From Haloplasma contractile (lineage in GTDB: Bacteria > Bacillota_I > Bacilli_A > Haloplasmatales > Haloplasmataceae): 64,000 bases of DNA. Below, piece by piece: positions 21,766 to 41,279 of the stretch. The position numbers were made by a program, and so were the translations under genes. The DNA is taken from NCBI GenBank assembly GCA_016841945.1, contig JAENYC010000020.1, forward strand, positions 1 to 64,000, read 5' to 3'. A model generated the notes under the pieces. The model saw only the letters and a list, made by a program, of their open reading frames with translations. It was not told the DNA's origin and ran no database searches. Within the stretch, counting starts at the first letter, position 1; each line of letters starts with the position of its first letter.

Positions 21766-22161
21766 ATGATTAAAATCAATGTTGTGACACCTCAAGGTAA
21801 ATTGTTTGAAGAAGAAGCTAAGATCATTATTGTTCGTAATGTCGATGGTGAACAGGCTATTATGCAAGATCATACGCCTGTTGTAATTGCGATTAATCCA
21901 GGATACGTTAGATTAGTAAAAGATGATGAAACCTTATTTGTGACTATAGTAGGTGGATTTTTAGAATTTTCGAATAATGTGGTAAACGTTGTTGCTCAAG
22001 AAGCAGAAATTGGTAGAGATCATGAAAATGCCTTAAAACACCTTGCTGATTTAAGGAAAGAAAGATTAGATGAAAATAGACGAAGAAATATAGATTTTAC
22101 AAAAGCTGAACGAGAACTAAAAGAACAAATAAAAAACATAAATGCTAGTCAATATCAATAG
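21766..22161 (+). CDS. atpC: F0F1 ATP synthase subunit epsilon
   Basis: 131 residues. An N-terminal beta sandwich with VVTPQGKLF and IMQDHTPVV, and a C-terminal two-helix domain that can inhibit rotation. Last gene of the operon, followed directly by a terminator; the usual atpC-DUF1146 neighbourhood is then interrupted by the regulator island. Confidence 0.95.
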   Translation: MIKINVVTPQGKLFEEEAKIIIVRNVDGEQAIMQDHTPVVIAINPGYVRLVKDDETLFVTIVGGFLEFSNNVVNVVAQEAEIGRDHENALKHLADLRKERLDENRRRNIDFTKAERELKEQIKNINASQYQ

Positions 22162-22252: not shown

Positions 22253-23506
22253 ATGGGAATTAAAGAATACTATTTAGAAGACGATATAAAAAAACAACTA
22301 GGTTACATCATAAGAGAAAATAGAAAGCAAAAACTATTAGAATATAAAAATAAAATGCTCATAGAATATAATCCATACACAAAAGAGAATTTTTGCGAAA
22401 ATAATGCCGTATGCCATTATCACACTCTAACAAAATTAGAAAGCGATTTAATAACAGAAAATTCTGTTTATCATTTATTCTTAAAAAAATTAGATTTATA
22501 TTACCAAGTATCACCTGAAGAACATAGAGAAAATATGGAATATGTTAAAGAAAAAACAGAAAAAATTTTACGCGCTGGTGAATACATGGATGATGAATGT
22601 GCAAAAGAATGTAATATAGAGTTGGAACAAGTTAATTTTAATAAAGATATTATTGCTCATTATTATTTATATTTATTAAAAATATTTATAAAATTACAAC
22701 TTATTAATAAAATTGATGAAGATACATATCAATCATTGGTGAGATATGCAAACTTTTATCAAGGTATCCATTACGGAATAGCGATGCATTGCTTAGGAAT
22801 TTATTATTTAAATCAGTTTAAAACAAGTGAAGCAAAAGAGTGTTTTTTAAAAGCAAAAAAAGTATATGATAAACATAAAATAAGTAAAGGTTTAATTAGT
22901 TCCTATTTAATCGCTGTTTATGTTTATACAAATGATTATTATCACTCAGTCCCTTTATGTAATAGAATGAAAAATTATTATAAAAAAAATAATAATTATA
23001 AACGACTCATGCATGTTTATAACTACCTTTCAGATTACTATCTTTTAATTAATGCCCATGATATAGCTAAGAAATATTTTAATAAAGCAATTGAAATTAT
23101 TGATAATGATGAAACACTTACAAGATATAAATATGCATTATATTATAATTGGGGTTTTAGATGTTTCAAAGAGTTTAGATTTGAAGAAGCATTAGACAAT
23201 TTTAAAAAGAGTTTAACGTACTGTAAGAATAAAGTTAATAAAATACAGATTATAAATTATATATTGATTATCATGACTAAGTTGAACTACCCTACCAAAA
23301 AATTAATAATATATTGTAAAGAGGGAGAGAAATATGTTCAATATAGTAATGAAATTAACCTTCATATATTTAAATATTTCAGATTTAAATTAAAAAACAG
23401 TAAATATTATCGTAGATTTGCATATGAGAAGTTAATTCCTTTGTTATCAAAGAAAAAAAACAGTACGGAGGTGTTGTTATTTTTTTATCAAGATTTATAT
23501 AAATAG
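22253..23506 (+). CDS. XRE-TPR regulator of RRNPP type (paralogue 1)
   Basis: A 417-residue protein. Residues about 10-75 form a Cro/C1-like helix-turn-helix of the Rgg/PlcR kind: LGYIIRENRKQ helix, then FCENNAVCHYHTLTKLE in the place of the usual LCxxICSxxTLSKIE. A loop of about 15 extra residues containing NPYTKEN separates helices 1 and 2. From about residue 90 the chain is helical with TPR-like units (ALYYNWGFRCFKEFRFEEAL). This layout is typical of peptide-sensing RRNPP regulators (Rgg, PlcR, NprR). AGAGGTGA ribosome site. The next gene downstream encodes a peptide-precursor candidate. About half of the conserved residues are shared with the two paralogues downstream. Confidence 0.78.
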   Translation: MGIKEYYLEDDIKKQLGYIIRENRKQKLLEYKNKMLIEYNPYTKENFCENNAVCHYHTLTKLESDLITENSVYHLFLKKLDLYYQVSPEEHRENMEYVKEKTEKILRAGEYMDDECAKECNIELEQVNFNKDIIAHYYLYLLKIFIKLQLINKIDEDTYQSLVRYANFYQGIHYGIAMHCLGIYYLNQFKTSEAKECFLKAKKVYDKHKISKGLISSYLIAVYVYTNDYYHSVPLCNRMKNYYKKNNNYKRLMHVYNYLSDYYLLINAHDIAKKYFNKAIEIIDNDETLTRYKYALYYNWGFRCFKEFRFEEALDNFKKSLTYCKNKVNKIQIINYILIIMTKLNYPTKKLIIYCKEGEKYVQYSNEINLHIFKYFRFKLKNSKYYRRFAYEKLIPLLSKKKNSTEVLLFFYQDLYK

Positions 23507-23511
23507 CGCGA

Positions 23512-23557
23512 AATCTGTGGTCGTAGGATACAGAAATATATACTTTTTATAAATTTC
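23512..23557 (+). promoter_or_regulatory. Palindromic operator-like element, copy 1
   Basis: Ungapped 45-bp block (23512-23556), 39/45 identical to 40592-40636. Inside is an inverted repeat GAAATATATA-CTTTT-TATAAATTTC (23533-23557), arms matching at 9 of 10 positions. Its centre lies 36 bp before a TAAAAT hexamer at 23581, so it covers the place just upstream of and into the -35 region. It probably binds an activator, perhaps one of the neighbouring RRNPP regulators. Confidence 0.7.
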
Positions 23558-23614
23558 ACCACTTTATGCCCAGTGTGTAGTAAAATATAGTTAAGGAATA
23601 AAGGAGGCGTAAAG

Positions 23615-23761
23615 ATGAGAATTATAAAAAGTATTTTTTTAATTGTTTTCTTGATATTCATGGTGATAGTATGTATTAACTTAGGTTCAATAATTGGTGC
23701 TATCATCTTAGATGGTAGTAATAGTTATATTGACCCTATACCAATTCCTTTTGAAGGTTAA
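23615..23761 (+). CDS. Candidate secreted signalling-peptide precursor (48 aa)
   Basis: A short gene with the strong ribosome site AAAGGAGG (7 bases before the ATG). The product has a basic start (MRIIK), a hydrophobic stretch to about residue 32, then a polar segment and a proline-rich tail ending PIPIPFEG. Export signal plus a short C-terminal peptide is the plan of Phr, PapR and related pheromone precursors; the tail resembles PapR's LPFEF. It follows the first regulator, as cognate peptides usually do, and is preceded by the palindromic element. It could instead be a small membrane protein or bacteriocin-like peptide. Confidence 0.65.
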   Translation: MRIIKSIFLIVFLIFMVIVCINLGSIIGAIILDGSNSYIDPIPIPFEG

Positions 23762-23781
23762 TTTAGTATTAATGAAGAATA

Positions 23782-23835
23782 GTGGAGGATTATATTATTT
23801 ATATTAGTACATTAGTATTGATGATTTCGTTTTAA
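23782..23835 (+). CDS. Possible mini-ORF (17 aa), very uncertain
   Basis: GTG 23782 opens a 17-codon frame for a hydrophobic peptide (YIIYISTLVLMISF). GGAGG lies inside the frame rather than before it, so translation is doubtful. Noted because part of the sequence, ATTATT-TATATTAGTA, recurs in the short transcript at 27079-27093. Confidence 0.12.
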   Translation: MEDYIIYISTLVLMISF

Positions 23836-23893
23836 TTTGTTGAATTATGGAGGAAATAGTAACCAAAAGATATTATTAAAGGGGTGATATGAT

Positions 23894-24265
23894 ATGAAAT
23901 ATCAGCACGAAATTAATAATTTCATTTGGGGTGAATTGTTGTTAAGTGAAGTATCATTAGATGGGGAAAACATTGTAATAAAAATTGTAGAAAAAGATAA
24001 CCATGTAAAAATAATAAATTGTGAAGAATTTATTGGAATAAAATGTTTAGGTAAATGGGAAGAATCAATCATAGAATCTATTTCGGTTGACAAATCTGGT
24101 GATGTTATTGTTGAATCGGTATTTAAAATAAAACATAATTATGAAGTACCATGTGGCAGTCTAACATCTAGAAACATTTTTTATCCATGGGTTCAACTAA
24201 ATATCAAATTAGTTGATGGCTGTTATGTTAAAATAGCATGTAAAAACACATATATTGTAGAATAA
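23894..24265 (+). CDS. Unknown 123-residue protein in the regulator island
   Basis: A small soluble protein, rich in alternating hydrophobic residues (beta-type), with no motif I recognise: N-terminal MKYQHEINNFIWGELLLSE, a central KCLGKWEESIIESISVD and cysteines near residues 44, 51, 87 and 115. Ribosome site AAAGGGGTGATATGAT. It sits 132 bases after the peptide candidate with no terminator between, so it may be co-transcribed with it, and ends at a strong terminator. It could be a target or immunity-type gene of the peptide system; this is inference from position only. Confidence 0.6.
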   Translation: MKYQHEINNFIWGELLLSEVSLDGENIVIKIVEKDNHVKIINCEEFIGIKCLGKWEESIIESISVDKSGDVIVESVFKIKHNYEVPCGSLTSRNIFYPWVQLNIKLVDGCYVKIACKNTYIVE

Positions 24266-24278
24266 ATATTGATCTTAT

Positions 24279-24306
24279 AAAAATAGGCCAAAGGCCTATT
24301 TTTCCT
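24279..24306 (+). terminator. Terminator
   Basis: Perfect 11-bp stem AAAAATAGGCC/GGCCTATTTTT (24279-24289 with 24293-24303), loop AAA. Confidence 0.88.
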
Positions 24307-24320
24307 TTTTTGTAGAAATT

Positions 24321-24329
24321 TGCTATAAT
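24321..24329 (+). promoter_or_regulatory. Extended -10 promoter of the second regulator
   Basis: TGCTATAAT 45 bases before the ATG at 24374; same promoter type as that of paralogue 1. Confidence 0.62.
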
Positions 24330-24373
24330 ATAAGGGAAAATATCATTATTATTATGTAAGTAGGGTGAGTATA

Positions 24374-25606
24374 ATGTCAAAATTTCCTGTAGAAATTAAG
24401 AAAAAGTTGGGGTATATCATTCGAGAATATCGATTGTACAAATTCGAAGAAACAAAAAAGAATAATGGAACCAATAATAATCCTTATACAAAAGAAAATT
24501 TTTGTGATGACATTTGTCATTATCATACCTTGACAAAAATAGAAAATGATTATGTCAATAATGATGATATTTACAATAAATTATTATCGAAGCTGGGATA
24601 TAAATTTGATGTAACGTATGAAGAACATGAAAAAAATATAAGACAACTAAATCTTTTATTAGAACAAATTTTTATAGCCATTGAATATATTGATGATTCA
24701 ATTGTTATAAGTGTGAATAATGAATTAAAAGATAATTACTATAATGATTGTATTTCACTAGTACATGTGTATTTAATTGAATCACTTTATAGTTTACAAT
24801 TTCTTCAAAAGATTGACGATTTTGAAAAATACGAAATAGAATTATATAAAGGTTTATTTAAAGGTTTATACAAAGGGTTGTACTATCACCTTTTAGGGAT
24901 TTATCATAGTAATAAAATAAAACTAGAGGAAGCACGAGATTTTTTATTAAAAGCTAAATCAATATATGACCAACATAATATTAGTAAAGGAGTAATTAAC
25001 TCCCATATTATAGGACTCTATATGTTAGAAAGAAATTATATAAGTCTTGTTAACTTAAGTTTAGAAATGATTTCATACTACAAAAAAACAAATAACCATA
25101 AACGACTATTTCATGTATATAATTACCTATCAATGTATTACCTAGATATAAATTCATTTAATCAAGCAAATGAATATCATAAAAGAATAATGGAGTTGAT
25201 GTCAAAGGAATCATCGTTAATACGGTATAGACCAGCAGTATGTTATAATTGGGGATTATATTTAACTAGAAATTATTTTTTTGAAGAAGCATTAGAATAT
25301 ATGAATGATGCATTATACCATTGTAAAACACCAACAATAAGAATTCTCATAGTCACTGTAATAATATTTCTCATGAATAAGTTAAAAAAAAATGAAAAAG
25401 AAGTTGTAAAGTTAATTAATACTAATAAAAAGTACATGAAAGATGCATATGAAGTTGAAATATTAGTGTTTAAATATTTTGTGTATAAATATAATAAAAA
25501 TTACTATCATAAAAAATATGCTTTGTCGAAATTAGTACCATATCTTAAATCTGATCCATCTAAAATTGATTTTTTACTATTATTATATCAAGATTTATAT
25601 GAATGA
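24374..25606 (+). CDS. XRE-TPR regulator of RRNPP type (paralogue 2)
   Basis: A 410-residue paralogue. The helix-turn-helix reads LGYIIREYRLYK ... NPYTKENFCDDICHYHTLTKIE, two residues shorter between the cysteines than in its neighbours. The C-terminal half is TPR-like, with YNYLSMYYLDINSFNQANEY matching the corresponding unit of paralogue 1. TAGGGTGAG ribosome site at ATG 24374; the earlier GTG overlaps it. It has its own promoter and the third copy follows 64 bases later with no terminator between. Confidence 0.76.
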   Translation: MSKFPVEIKKKLGYIIREYRLYKFEETKKNNGTNNNPYTKENFCDDICHYHTLTKIENDYVNNDDIYNKLLSKLGYKFDVTYEEHEKNIRQLNLLLEQIFIAIEYIDDSIVISVNNELKDNYYNDCISLVHVYLIESLYSLQFLQKIDDFEKYEIELYKGLFKGLYKGLYYHLLGIYHSNKIKLEEARDFLLKAKSIYDQHNISKGVINSHIIGLYMLERNYISLVNLSLEMISYYKKTNNHKRLFHVYNYLSMYYLDINSFNQANEYHKRIMELMSKESSLIRYRPAVCYNWGLYLTRNYFFEEALEYMNDALYHCKTPTIRILIVTVIIFLMNKLKKNEKEVVKLINTNKKYMKDAYEVEILVFKYFVYKYNKNYYHKKYALSKLVPYLKSDPSKIDFLLLLYQDLYE

Positions 25607-25670
25607 GTTTATTTATTCTTTTAAACCTTGTCAAAAATGATAGAAATGTATGCAAATAGAGGTTGATTAT

Positions 25671-26918
25671 ATGTTAATAAAAAATTATACCATATCGAAA
25701 ACAGTAAAAAGACAATTGGGTTTAATTATTAAAATCATTAGAACAAAGAAATTAGAAGAAAATAAAAGTAAAAACTTAATTGAGGTTAATCCATATACAA
25801 AAGAAAGTTTCTGTGATAATAATGAGATTTGTCATTATCATACATTAACTAATTTAGAAACAAATTATGTTAGACAGGATAATCTCTATCATATATTTTT
25901 AGGAAAATTGAACCTAAGATTTCAAGTAGATGAAAATAAACATACTAAAAATATGGATTGTTTATCAACAATTTTAGACAAAATGATTAATGCAATTGAA
26001 AGTTTAGATCATCAATTGATAGATGAAGTAAAAGAAATGATAAATTCTTTAAACTTTAATGATGATTGTATTGCGCTTATTCATTTCGAACTATTGACAT
26101 ATGCTTTTTATACGTTATTAGAAAATAAAAAAAGTGATATATCAAGGGAAAAAATTGAGTCTTACCTTCCTTTGTATAAGGATTTATATAAAGCACTTGC
26201 TTATCAAAGCATTGGATATGGATATTTATTAAAAGAACAATATGAAAAAGCAGAAGAACATTGTAAAAAAGCAATTAAAGAATATCAATTACATGAAGTA
26301 AGTATTGGTGTTAGTCACTTTCCTCTAATCGATATTTATGTGAACCATAATCATTATTATGAAGCAGTTAAACTATGTAATGAATTAGAAGAATATTATT
26401 TTAATACCAACAATAAAAATCGTTTATTGTCAATTTATATTTATTTAGTTGATTATTATTTATTAATTAATTCCATGGATTTTGCGAAAAAGTATTATGA
26501 TGAAGCCCTTTTGTTATCGAATGATAAAGCGCAATATTCAGATTCAATTTATCGATTACATTATATTTGGGGATGCCATGAGTTAACTTTATATCATGAA
26601 AAAGAAGCATTACAATATTTTAAATTGGCTTATAGATATTGTAAGAATGAAATGTATCAATTAAGAAATATCAACAGGATTTTAATATGTTTAACAATTT
26701 TAAATGAAGAATTGGATAAAATAAAAGAAATGATACAAATGGGTGATGAAGTATATCTATATGGTAATCAGATTGAGAAACTTATTTTTAATTATTTCGT
26801 ATTAAAAATTAAAAATAAAGAATACCGTCAATTTGCGATAAATAATATCATTCCAATATTAAAAGTTAAAAAAAACTTAAAGTTTGTTTTACTATTTTTC
26901 TATGAAGATGTATATTAA
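25671..26918 (+). CDS. XRE-TPR regulator of RRNPP type (paralogue 3)
   Basis: A 415-residue paralogue: LGLIIKIIRTKK helix, NPYTKESFCDNNEICHYHTLTNLE, then TPR-like helices (LLKEQYEKAEEHCKKAIKEY). Start at ATG 25671 after AGAGGTTGAT; an in-frame TTG at 25650 is upstream of that site. It lacks the clear promoter seen before the other two copies and may be transcribed with paralogue 2. A short transcript with its own promoter and terminator follows. Confidence 0.76.
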   Translation: MLIKNYTISKTVKRQLGLIIKIIRTKKLEENKSKNLIEVNPYTKESFCDNNEICHYHTLTNLETNYVRQDNLYHIFLGKLNLRFQVDENKHTKNMDCLSTILDKMINAIESLDHQLIDEVKEMINSLNFNDDCIALIHFELLTYAFYTLLENKKSDISREKIESYLPLYKDLYKALAYQSIGYGYLLKEQYEKAEEHCKKAIKEYQLHEVSIGVSHFPLIDIYVNHNHYYEAVKLCNELEEYYFNTNNKNRLLSIYIYLVDYYLLINSMDFAKKYYDEALLLSNDKAQYSDSIYRLHYIWGCHELTLYHEKEALQYFKLAYRYCKNEMYQLRNINRILICLTILNEELDKIKEMIQMGDEVYLYGNQIEKLIFNYFVLKIKNKEYRQFAINNIIPILKVKKNLKFVLLFFYEDVY

Positions 26919-27007
26919 TTTTAAAAAATGAAAACCATTTTTAACCTATTTTTGCTTAATTTCATATAAACAAATGACACTTTTGTTCTAATTTTGGTGT
27001 TTTTCCA

Positions 27008-27053
27008 ATACTTTTTATAAGTTTTAATAAAAACTATATATTTCATGTATAAT
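27008..27053 (+). promoter_or_regulatory. Element copy 3 and promoter of a short transcript
   Basis: ATACTTTTTATAAGTTT (27008-27024) matches 16 of 17 positions of the core in copies 1 and 2; the left arm is lost. Its centre is 35 bp before TATAAT at 27048, the same distance as in the other two copies. Confidence 0.55.
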
Positions 27054-27059
27054 ATAATT

Positions 27060-27173
27060 GGGTTGTAAGTTGTGGTATTATTATATATTAGTATTTTCTC
27101 AAATTTAGGGGTTATTATGCTTTATTGTGAAGAGGAAAAGAAAAAAGGATGATTCTTTAATCATTCTTTTTTC
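27060..27173 (+). ncRNA. Predicted short transcript (about 110 nt), possible peptide mRNA
   Basis: Bounded by a -10 at 27048-27053 and a strong terminator at 27141-27173, with no conserved gene in it. It contains an in-frame GTG 27072 to TGA 27152 frame (26 codons, hydrophobic start VLLYISIFSNLGVIM then a charged end EEEKKKG), with an internal ATG at 27117 preceded by AGGGG. It may be a second pheromone-type mRNA or a small RNA. Confidence 0.35.
27141..27173 (+). terminator. Terminator of the short transcript
   Basis: 14-bp stem with one G-T pair (27141-27154 with 27159-27172), loop CTTT, then T run. Confidence 0.85.
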
Positions 27174-27244
27174 GTTTTCATTTTTTTCAAACCATGTTAT
27201 AATTTTATTAAGAGATTATATAATAAAAAGAGGAGCTTGGTATT

Positions 27245-27469
27245 GTGAAATTATATTATCTTTTAGAACTATGTACCTATATTGCATTAATACCAATTGT
27301 GTATAAAGTGATAAGTGCAATAGATGTTAGTAAAATATTTAAAAAGAATCATGTTACAGAAATTAGAATGTTTTATTTATTTATCATTATTATAATGACA
27401 AAGATTCTTGGAGATTTTGTGATTATGTTAATGGAGTATTTTAGAGTTTTATTAGGCATAACACTATAA
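27245..27469 (+). CDS. DUF1146 family small membrane protein
   Basis: A 74-residue protein with two membrane helices (about 5-24 and 41-70). Length, topology and place match DUF1146/YwzB, a small protein found just after the ATP synthase operon in Bacillota. Starts at GTG 27245 after AGAGGAG. Its normal neighbour atpC is now 5 kb away, across the regulator island. Function unknown. Confidence 0.75.
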   Translation: MKLYYLLELCTYIALIPIVYKVISAIDVSKIFKKNHVTEIRMFYLFIIIIMTKILGDFVIMLMEYFRVLLGITL

Positions 27470-40400: not shown

Positions 40401-40582
40401 AGGGATTTGGTTCACTTGACCCTGAAAGTTTAGAACAAGCTATCTCCACACTTATCAATATTCAAAAGAGTGGAAGATTGGTTGGAATTATATCACATGT
40501 TCAAGAATTGAAAGAAAGAATAGATGTTAAATTAGAAATAACATCGAGTCAATTAGGTAGTACTGCTAAAATCATCATATAA
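37466..40582 (+). CDS. sbcC: Exonuclease subunit SbcC (Rad50-like)
   Basis: A 1038-residue SMC-like ATPase that works with SbcD on DNA ends and hairpins. Walker A GPTGAGKTT (35-43), a long coiled coil with the zinc hook CPVC near residue 520, then the signature LSGGEAF and Walker B IFIDEGFGSLDPE. Full length and intact. Confidence 0.95.
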   Translation: MKLIKLSFCAFGPYKKEQTIDFSQINDRKLFLISGPTGAGKTTIFDAISYALYGYSSGNGRDGDSLRSDFASIDSETYVSLAFQLKGKNYYVRRRPRQLRKKLKGEGTTIQQGEAELTIENGKTYTGIYEVNNKIQEILGINYDQFKQIVMLPQGEFRQLLEASSQDRESILRRLFKTEDFLAVQERLKEKTKDLDYEIKDSQKLLENDCHQIMFDDGSELEKEVLKDKKDYETIMLLLREKIEEDEKKIEKLLEEEKRKEKEIFQLTSEIEKGQLINQKYKKVEELKTVKKDLLEKEVDIKTLEIKVKKAHQAQIIYQIEKQLTKIKASIEENKKNEEEFVLKEKALRKEVKDLNLDLKEKEKAYNEVNQLEEKVYYLKDKLTEYQVYEEKKKELEEIQKDKYQLDEEIKDKEDGIKSLEEKLDEMKQKSEINQKEISSLSDKRVQKETIIHQLKEKQLQLKVLKELVDLDEKHQKLSKLYQNKLADYKDLQKIYEDKFDSYLLGQAGILAKDLRPHTPCPVCGSTHHPKKASLLENVCTTEELEELKIELGKKEKIKNDYYSEVLGLHQTIEDKKKLYRELSDIKHDEFNIQEEVKKLEKLLNEEEDVLKQVKNDINILEEKTKKQKELEALYEKNITNFNQEKESLHVLKASYIEVKKTYQIKLETIEGYQDGVVKEYQNKEALEREINQIEKNICEVKDHYHKLLKEIERVQHDLLVIQTDIKNLVNRSLSDERDLEIENKKFNDKLNTYDFTNIDDYKKYLYKQNEIDVFESQVRNYYEELSYVNKTLQQLQEELKDKKVIEVNHLIDKQNIEKKHYQTLREEEKALHLMLQNNYRILNNITLLYKNIKHQLERYEMISTISSVANGNNPQRLTFERYVLAAYFDDIIAAANLRLSEMTNNRYFLCRKEEKGKGNAQQGLDLEVVDNYTSKNRLVKTLSGGEAFIASLSLALGLADVVQSHAGGIELDTIFIDEGFGSLDPESLEQAISTLINIQKSGRLVGIISHVQELKERIDVKLEITSSQLGSTAKIII

Positions 40583-40591
40583 AACACCTGT

Positions 40592-40637
40592 AATCTTGTC
40601 TCCTAGGATACTGAAATATATACTTTTTATAAATTTT
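40592..40637 (+). promoter_or_regulatory. Palindromic operator-like element, copy 2
   Basis: Ungapped match to 23512-23556 (39/45). The inverted repeat GAAATATATA-CTTTT-TATAAATTT (40613-40637) is centred 35 bp before the extended -10 TGGTATAAT (40657-40665). It is the only match of this quality I found outside the regulator island. Confidence 0.7.
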
Positions 40638-40691: not shown

Positions 40692-41279
40692 ATGGATAAG
40701 CGTTTTTTTACTATCATAGAAGAGTTAAAAAAATGGAAGAATGATGATGATGCCATATTACAAGATGGAACACAATTAATATGTAAAGTATCACATATTT
40801 CTTCATTAAATTATTTTCATAAAATATATGCACCACTTAATACTTTAGATATTGAAAAGATTGAAACATTATTAAAAGTTAAGCTACCTGATTTTTTGCT
40901 TGATTTATTGTTAAAATGTAACGGGATGGATTTATTTCATTCTAATCTTTCAATACTGGGTTTAAGAAAGAAAAAGGAAATGAAGTATTATGAACGGTAT
41001 TTTCAACCTTCAGATATCATTGTTGAAAATCTAGGTCGATATAAACAGAATGAATATATTAAGTTTGCAACTTATAAAGAAGGATATGATGTATATTTTA
41101 AAAGTGGTAATGAGAATAATGTTTATATAATGGAACAAAAAACGGATAGAATAGTAAAAGAATACACTGATTTTTACGAATGGTTAAGTTATACCATAAA
41201 TAAGTTATCTCAATATTTTAATCTATCAGGTCAATTGATAAAAGAAAATAAATTAGTTAATTTATATAAGATTATTTAA
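40692..41279 (+). CDS. SMI1/KNR4 (SUKH) domain protein
   Basis: A 195-residue protein. Residues about 45-165 follow the SUKH plan: YAPLNTLDIEKIETLLKVKLPDFL, LLKCNGMDLF, a loop and strands ending at DFYEWL. SUKH proteins are often immunity proteins against polymorphic toxins; some have other roles. No toxin gene is adjacent. TTAAGGAGG ribosome site. The promoter carries the same palindromic element as the peptide-precursor gene at 23615, so both may belong to one regulon. Confidence 0.7.
   Translation: MDKRFFTIIEELKKWKNDDDAILQDGTQLICKVSHISSLNYFHKIYAPLNTLDIEKIETLLKVKLPDFLLDLLLKCNGMDLFHSNLSILGLRKKKEMKYYERYFQPSDIIVENLGRYKQNEYIKFATYKEGYDVYFKSGNENNVYIMEQKTDRIVKEYTDFYEWLSYTINKLSQYFNLSGQLIKENKLVNLYKII

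Follow-up and report, generated by a model that had tools for sequence, protein, structure and literature searches.

Results

Three HTH-TPR genes and a peptide gene between atpC and the DUF1146 gene

The DNA analysed here (the window) is a stretch of 64,000 nucleotides of contig JAENYC010000020.1 from Haloplasma contractile, part of a genome of 3.43 Mb in 73 contigs (G000). Between atpC and a DUF1146 gene, itself followed by an M23 peptidase gene, the window carries three tandem genes, R1, R2 and R3, encoding proteins of 417, 410 and 415 residues with a predicted helix-turn-helix (HTH) and tetratricopeptide repeats (TPRs); a short gene of export type lies directly after R1 (Table 1). We describe these genes, with an operator predicted upstream of the peptide gene and at distant loci, as a candidate peptide quorum-sensing system of the RRNPP kind.

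A sequence-only reading of the window had noted three paralogous genes inserted between two usual neighbours. The open reading frames (ORFs) were confirmed; their products are about 40% identical to each other and are the sole three matches of their family in a search of G000. Seven other Haloplasmataceae genomes were compared (G001 to G007, of which G001 is of the same genus). The same block occupies the same position in the relatives Inordinaticella fortuita and Haloplasmataceae bacterium. R1-R2-R3 is complete in G003, G005 and G007; in G002 a short contig that begins just before the peptide ORF carries this ORF followed by R2 and R3, and G001 has R1 without R2 and R3. G004 and G006 lack the family, and in G004 the DUF1146 gene immediately follows atpC; therefore, the R1–R3 block is an insertion between normally neighbouring genes, as had been proposed.

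No full-length relative of R1–R3 was found outside Haloplasmataceae among 395 genomes of the class, and none in IMG/VR or in phage, viral or plasmid collections; a phage, viral or plasmid origin was therefore rejected. NCBIfam and PHROG searches gave no useful match, and a viral fold search returned unspecific TPRs only. A tree supports R1, R2 and R3 being old positional paralogs in most genera, the G005 copies not being placed. It was observed that R1 of G000 groups with R1 of G007, from another genus, and not with that of same-genus G001, a possible trace of locus replacement.

Table 1. Positions in the window of the genes and predicted elements discussed in the text
Feature	Position	Strand	Evidence
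atpC	21766–22161
R1 (417 aa), HTH-TPR receptor/regulator and partner of the peptide gene	22253–23506	+	ORF call, Pfam, AlphaFold2, fold search
Operator 1 (predicted), right arm ATACTTTTTATA at 23540–23551	23495–23557	+	Profile E 6.8e-15
-10 element TAAAAT of the peptide promoter	23581–23586	+	Alignment of sites
Propeptide gene, 48 codons, tail ...SYIDPIPIPFEG	23615–23761	+	ORF in relatives, shuffle test
123-aa protein, no known family	23894–24265	+	Pfam, relative comparison
Intrinsic terminator of the propeptide–123-aa unit, AAATAGGCC-AAA-GGCCTATTTTT	24280–24309	+	Sequence
R2, second HTH-TPR paralog, 410 aa	24374–25606	+	ORF call, Pfam, paralog comparison
R3, third HTH-TPR paralog, 415 aa	25671–26918	+	ORF call, Pfam, paralog comparison
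Operator 2 (predicted), upstream of the short transcript after R3	26962–27026	+	Profile E 8.9e-6
Short terminated transcript after R3, small-RNA candidate	27054–27180	+	Conservation in four genomes
DUF1146 gene	27245–27469		Pfam E 1e-6
Operator 3 (predicted), upstream of the SUKH gene	40575–40637	+	Profile E 3.1e-13
SUKH-1 (SMI1/KNR4) protein of 195 aa, encoded upstream of secA, a conserved predicted target	40692–41279	+	E 1.1e-10

An export-type peptide gene accompanies the family

The propeptide of G000 has two basic residues within its first six, then a hydrophobic stretch. A short export-type ORF (export judged by charge and hydropathy) was found in all six genomes with the R1–R3 family, directly 3' of R1 in the five that have R1 sequence and directly before R2 in G002; the adjacent gene for an exported propeptide of 10–100 aa that characterizes RRNPP/RRNPPA systems is thus present throughout. 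These ORFs encode 44–69 residues. Each has a Shine-Dalgarno sequence, and its product carries two to four basic residues and a hydrophobic stretch, followed by a tail that varies but includes P-x-P-[F/Y]. The tails read SYIDPIPIPFEG in G000, VIDPVPMPYST... in G001, NVEMLPLPFSVFS in G003, DIETRPLPFSIKKPTQL in G005, TIDPIPLPFNPV... in G007 and GIDKIPLPFDPE... in G002. Markov shuffles of the gap after R1 produced an export-type ORF in 1 of 2000 cases. The peptide gene that the sequence-only reading had placed after R1 is therefore well founded, and its proposed check, whether relatives keep a short export-type ORF nearby, gave a positive answer. Used as a query, the 48-aa peptide matched itself alone in G000. 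Two Opp-type binding proteins (SBP_bac_5) are encoded in G000.

R1 is predicted to fold like NprR and Rap

Pfam detected TPRs in R1–R3 (in R1, TPR_2 at 41.4 bits for a cut-off of 27). The AlphaFold2 model of R1, made with 15 aligned relatives (predicted local distance difference test, pLDDT, 92.1; predicted template modelling score, pTM, 0.87), is all helical and consists of an XRE-type HTH and a TPR superhelix. Against the PDB, its top 20 matches were NprR or Rap without exception: the best was apo NprR (5dbk, E 6.6e-6, template modelling scores 0.59/0.67), and NprR-NprX (4gpk), Rap-phi3T and RapF were also among the top matches. PlcR was absent from the top 50. The likeness to NprR is one of fold only, with 14–17% identity in the structural alignment and no usable sequence similarity; NprR chains were not among the PDB sequence matches of the R1–R3 profile at E≤1. 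The N-terminal domain modelled alone matched XRE-type HTH proteins (HipB, C-proteins and the ComR DNA-binding domain, the last at 1.9–2.3 Å over about 70 residues). In profile comparison, R1–R3 aligned over their whole length with a divergent HTH-TPR family (E 2.1e-17), two of three members of which have weak HTH_3 matches.

The three proteins thus have the size (250–500 aa), and R1 the predicted TPR superhelix, of RRNPP/RRNPPA receptors. With NprR and Rap as the best solved matches and a short export-type ORF beside R1, the structure prediction that had been called for bears out the RRNPP-type build suggested earlier, except that the TPR part, described as the C-terminal half, makes up about 80% of the protein.

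Within R1–R3, conservation is highest in the HTH core (NPYTKENFCxxxxCHYHTLTKLE), 73–79% identical between the G000 paralogs, compared with 29–37% in the TPR part. The natural reading of this pattern is a common DNA target and a diverging sensor: R2 and R3, which keep the DNA-reading core of R1, probably act on the same operator but respond to peptide differently. Parallel or diverging specificities had been suggested for the three copies. Divergence of the TPR part beside a nearly constant HTH core would suit three receptors acting on one operator; only one peptide gene was found, and three separate peptide circuits are therefore not supported.

A predicted operator is shared by the peptide gene and distant loci

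Comparison of the gap after R1 showed that ATACTTTTTATA is invariant before the peptide -10 in all five genomes with that stretch. It belongs to a predicted, partly palindromic operator of about 60 bp, missed by the sequence-only reading, whose left arm at operator 1 is overlapped by the last codons of R1. There are four copies of ATACTTTTTATA in the window for 0.15 expected. One of them lies on the minus strand (23623–23634), in the first codons of the propeptide gene and facing the operator; it may be a coding coincidence or a second site. Across G000, ATACTTTTTATA followed by TANNAT at 25–33 bases gave 11 matches, some of which are not true sites. Alignment of 19 good sites brought out a left arm (TATAAA) that mirrors the right one and, at the centre, a palindrome of GTCTCATATGAGAC type, neither of which had been selected for, and complementarity reached 52% at one centre compared with about 33% elsewhere. 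The G000 sites on contigs C63 and C4 are nearly perfect dyads, and the counterpart of operator 2 is also strong in G005.

The operator sits just upstream of the -35 position and at a fixed distance from a -10 element (often TGnTATAAT). The -35 is poor, and the peptide promoter has no good one; this arrangement suggests activation. A promoter for an alternative sigma factor was considered and rejected on motif position and length: counted from the -10, the motif begins about 40 bases upstream and runs on as a dyad for another 45, unlike a -35.

The operator profile matched at E≤1e-3 in all six genomes with the R1–R3 family and in 1 of 74 without it (E 1.6e-4); the best matches in G004 and G006 were at 0.07 and 0.10. 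The operator precedes the SUKH gene upstream of secA in five genomes with R1–R3 family genes. The G004 orthologue of this gene (46% identity) has retained its own -10 and lacks the operator, and is the sharpest control for the operator–regulator pairing. G001, with R1 alone, keeps the operator, so that R1 and the peptide are probably sufficient.

Predicted targets

The operator is predicted at a fixed distance before the -10 of the peptide gene, of the short transcript and of about ten loci across G000. The site-linked loci are the propeptide and 123-aa genes, the small terminated RNA after R3, the SUKH gene and an RHS-repeat protein gene (contig C22); sites on C63, C20 and C68 precede related secreted proteins, and sites on C5 and C43 precede membrane or secreted proteins. 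On C4, a single nearly perfect dyad (G000:C4:18453-18519; L054:4471-4502) lies between divergent genes, which we take, from resemblance, to be a secreted-protein/ABC operon on one side and yabP-yabQ-like and spoIIE-like genes on the other. In G001, a site is linked to a secreted protein with Ig-like and matrixin-like domains. In G005, sites are linked to four MreB genes in a row, a GGDEF-EAL protein, a secreted protein of 839 aa and, through a weak site (E 0.003), an EPS-type operon. The MreB site (contig C53, L104, contig positions 1461–1524, E 3e-11) precedes the first of these genes by about 290 bases. That gene may be transcribed from a promoter of its own, and the link is therefore a suggestion only; a tie between cell–cell signalling and the expanded MreB set of Haloplasmataceae is possible.

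The 123-aa gene and the short transcript

The 123-aa gene, absent from the sequence-only reading, lies between the peptide gene and R2. As no terminator separates it from the propeptide gene, the two are probably co-transcribed. Its product has a convincing relative only in same-genus G001 (74% identity, same place), where a similar terminator follows; other genera lack the gene, although they keep the peptide ORF. A sub-threshold Rfam match at 24276–24321 proved to be the terminator palindrome and not an RNA family.

The short terminated transcript seen earlier after R3 is kept in G000, G003, G005 and G007, with a hairpin and a U-run as its 3' end. No Rfam family matched it, and a hidden peptide was rejected because no ORF is shared by the four genomes.

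Other HTH-TPR regulators in Haloplasmataceae

A fourth, divergent HTH-TPR family, about 50% identical among genera, was observed at L102:2453-3673 (G005), L124:2273-3487 (G004) and L123:2690-3910 (G003), between NfeD/SPFH-type genes and an mntP-like gene. In G005, the GGDEF-EAL gene preceded by an operator-type site neighbours this regulator. G006 carries two tandem, clearly XRE-type HTH-TPR regulators (L125:3198-5748), an independent candidate system.

Discussion

The results make it highly probable that R1–R3 and the peptide gene form a self-activating, NprR-like peptide quorum-sensing system of the RRNPP kind, in which one signal would serve up to three receptors on the same DNA. An operator common to the peptide gene and to distant targets, and seen where the R1–R3 family is, would provide the autoinduction that such a system should show. 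By analogy with NprR and PlcR, the propeptide encoded beside R1 would be exported and trimmed to a short peptide around the P-x-P-[F/Y] core (IDPIPIPFEG in G000), then re-imported, probably via an oligopeptide permease, and bound in the TPR groove of R1 and perhaps also of R2 and R3. Once loaded with peptide, the receptor would sit on the operator, probably in multimeric form like NprR, and activate the promoter. Activation of its own propeptide gene would constitute positive feedback, and the other targets would be the small RNA after R3, the SUKH protein by secA and species-specific sets of secreted-protein and toxin-type genes. The system appears to switch on secreted proteins, toxin-type genes and its own signal, presumably at high cell density.

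Several points weigh against this interpretation. Pfam matched no HTH in R1, R2 or R3, and the fold matches of the HTH domain are weak (E 0.13–1.3), though consistent in class; the N-terminal HTH claimed by the sequence-only reading, and common to RRNPP/RRNPPA receptors other than Rap, is thus upheld by fold and by the profile link to relatives but not by Pfam. Charge and hydropathy, not a signal-peptide program, were the basis for calling the propeptide exported, and neither R2 nor R3 could be assigned a peptide gene. Several single operator sites are weakly symmetric, the dyad being a property of the set. Finally, the profile was trained on sites from the same genomes, which builds in part of the co-occurrence; independent of the training are the sites outside the training set and the negatives, both those across the class and those in G004 and G006.

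The least improbable alternative, itself unlikely, is that the receptor is a repressor released by the peptide, as with AimR or PrgX. Peptide binding makes AimR lose DNA binding (PMC6536502), and sequence does not reveal whether regulation is positive or negative. However, the operator lies upstream of a promoter core in which the -10 is good and the -35 poor, as in PlcR promoters (PMC4147580), whereas repressors more often cover the -35 and -10.

We also consider it improbable that the operator belongs to another regulator, for example of stress or sporulation, with R1–R3 as mere neighbours and shared ancestry behind the co-occurrence. The site between the secreted-protein operon and the yabP-yabQ/spoIIE-like side would fit such a regulator, and G004 and G006 are perhaps simply more distant relatives. 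Against this, the site adjoining R1 is among the strongest in every genome with that stretch, the operator tracks the presence of the regulator over 80 genomes, G004 has a target gene with its -10 but without the operator, and the HTH core is conserved above all else, as expected for a common DNA target.

About as improbable is the view that R1–R3 are transcription factors of this fold that respond to no ligand or to one other than the neighbouring peptide (for instance Spo0F or another protein partner, or a nutrient peptide taken up from outside), the small ORF encoding an unrelated small membrane protein. Many HTH-TPR regulators are without a known peptide, no short export ORF is evident beside the divergent fourth paralog of G003, G004 and G005, and the one peptide gene found is that next to R1; but an export-type ORF with the P-x-P-[F/Y] core is present in every genome with the family, its promoter carries the regulon operator, and NprR and Rap are the best structural matches. 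That the ORF is an antimicrobial or toxic peptide with the 123-aa protein as its immunity partner, both under R1–R3 control, is very unlikely: the 123-aa gene follows the ORF in the two same-genus genomes and several targets are SUKH, RHS or secreted proteins, but other genera keep the ORF without the 123-aa gene, and conservation is limited to a short motif and does not span a whole mature peptide.

Within the quorum-sensing interpretation, we regard as tentative, and rather doubtful, a scheme of one peptide, three co-evolved receptors and one composite operator, in which the R1:R2:R3 ratio sets a graded or antagonistic response, possibly through mixed multimers on the outer arms and central palindrome. 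If true, RRNPP signalling would take a form in which several receptors share a single operator, and the family-wide regulon under their control would include a small RNA, conflict genes of SUKH/RHS type and, in one species, an MreB operon.

Among known systems, NprR-NprX of the Bacillus cereus group shares with R1–R3 an HTH with a TPR superhelix, an adjacent exported propeptide gene and activation, predicted here, of genes for secreted products. NprR passes from dimer to tetramer on peptide binding, and the NprR-NprX tetramer has been proposed to occupy two DNA sites simultaneously (PMC4970707), which would suit a long composite operator. The NprX peptide SKPDIVG differs from the R1-associated peptide, and the DNA sequence read by NprR has been described as not yet precisely determined (PMC4147580). 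R1–R3 also differ from NprR in their three tandem receptors and lineage-specific operator. PlcR-PapR, from the same group, likewise has a 48-residue propeptide whose gene lies within its own regulon, a regulon of exported proteins, and promoters with a normal -10 and a divergent -35 (PMC4147580). The PapR7 C-terminal core ADLPFEF (PMC4701985) resembles DPIPIPFEG, a likeness that need not mean homology. The PlcR box is a 16-bp palindrome (TATGNANNNNANCATA), whereas the shared operator here is different and longer, with two outer arms and a central palindrome. Rap-Phr systems, including phage Rap-phi3T and RappLS20, have the same TPR superhelix as R1, but Rap proteins are without an HTH (PMC9765709) and act on other regulators by protein contact. 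In AimR-AimP of SPbeta phages, an HTH-TPR receptor reads a widely spaced inverted repeat of 31 bp (PMC6536502); it differs in serving a phage lysis–lysogeny switch in which peptide abolishes DNA binding, whereas phage or viral relatives of R1–R3 were not found.

RRNPPA comprises seven subfamilies, mainly of Bacillales and Lactobacillales (PMC9765709), and RRNPP_detector, which covered complete genomes, reported 21 further candidate subfamilies (PMC10075063). The main text of neither paper mentions Haloplasma, although their supplements may list it without a name, and no RRNPP system for Haloplasmataceae was found in the literature examined. Every feature tested places R1–R3 with the RRNPP systems, whereas sequence sets them apart from NprR and the operator from PlcR; they would form a new, apparently undescribed RRNPP-type subfamily.

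The predicted operator and regulon, which are usually missing, come here with natural controls, namely family members without the system and without the operator. The pairing of an NprR-like receptor with a long composite operator would offer a handle on DNA reading by NprR-type multimers, and three receptors on one operator would make receptor duplication in quorum sensing testable. Haloplasmataceae are deep-sea and environmental bacteria, a lineage next to the wall-less Mollicutes and known for unusual contractile cells; RRNPP signalling would thus extend to a lineage beside the wall-less Mollicutes.

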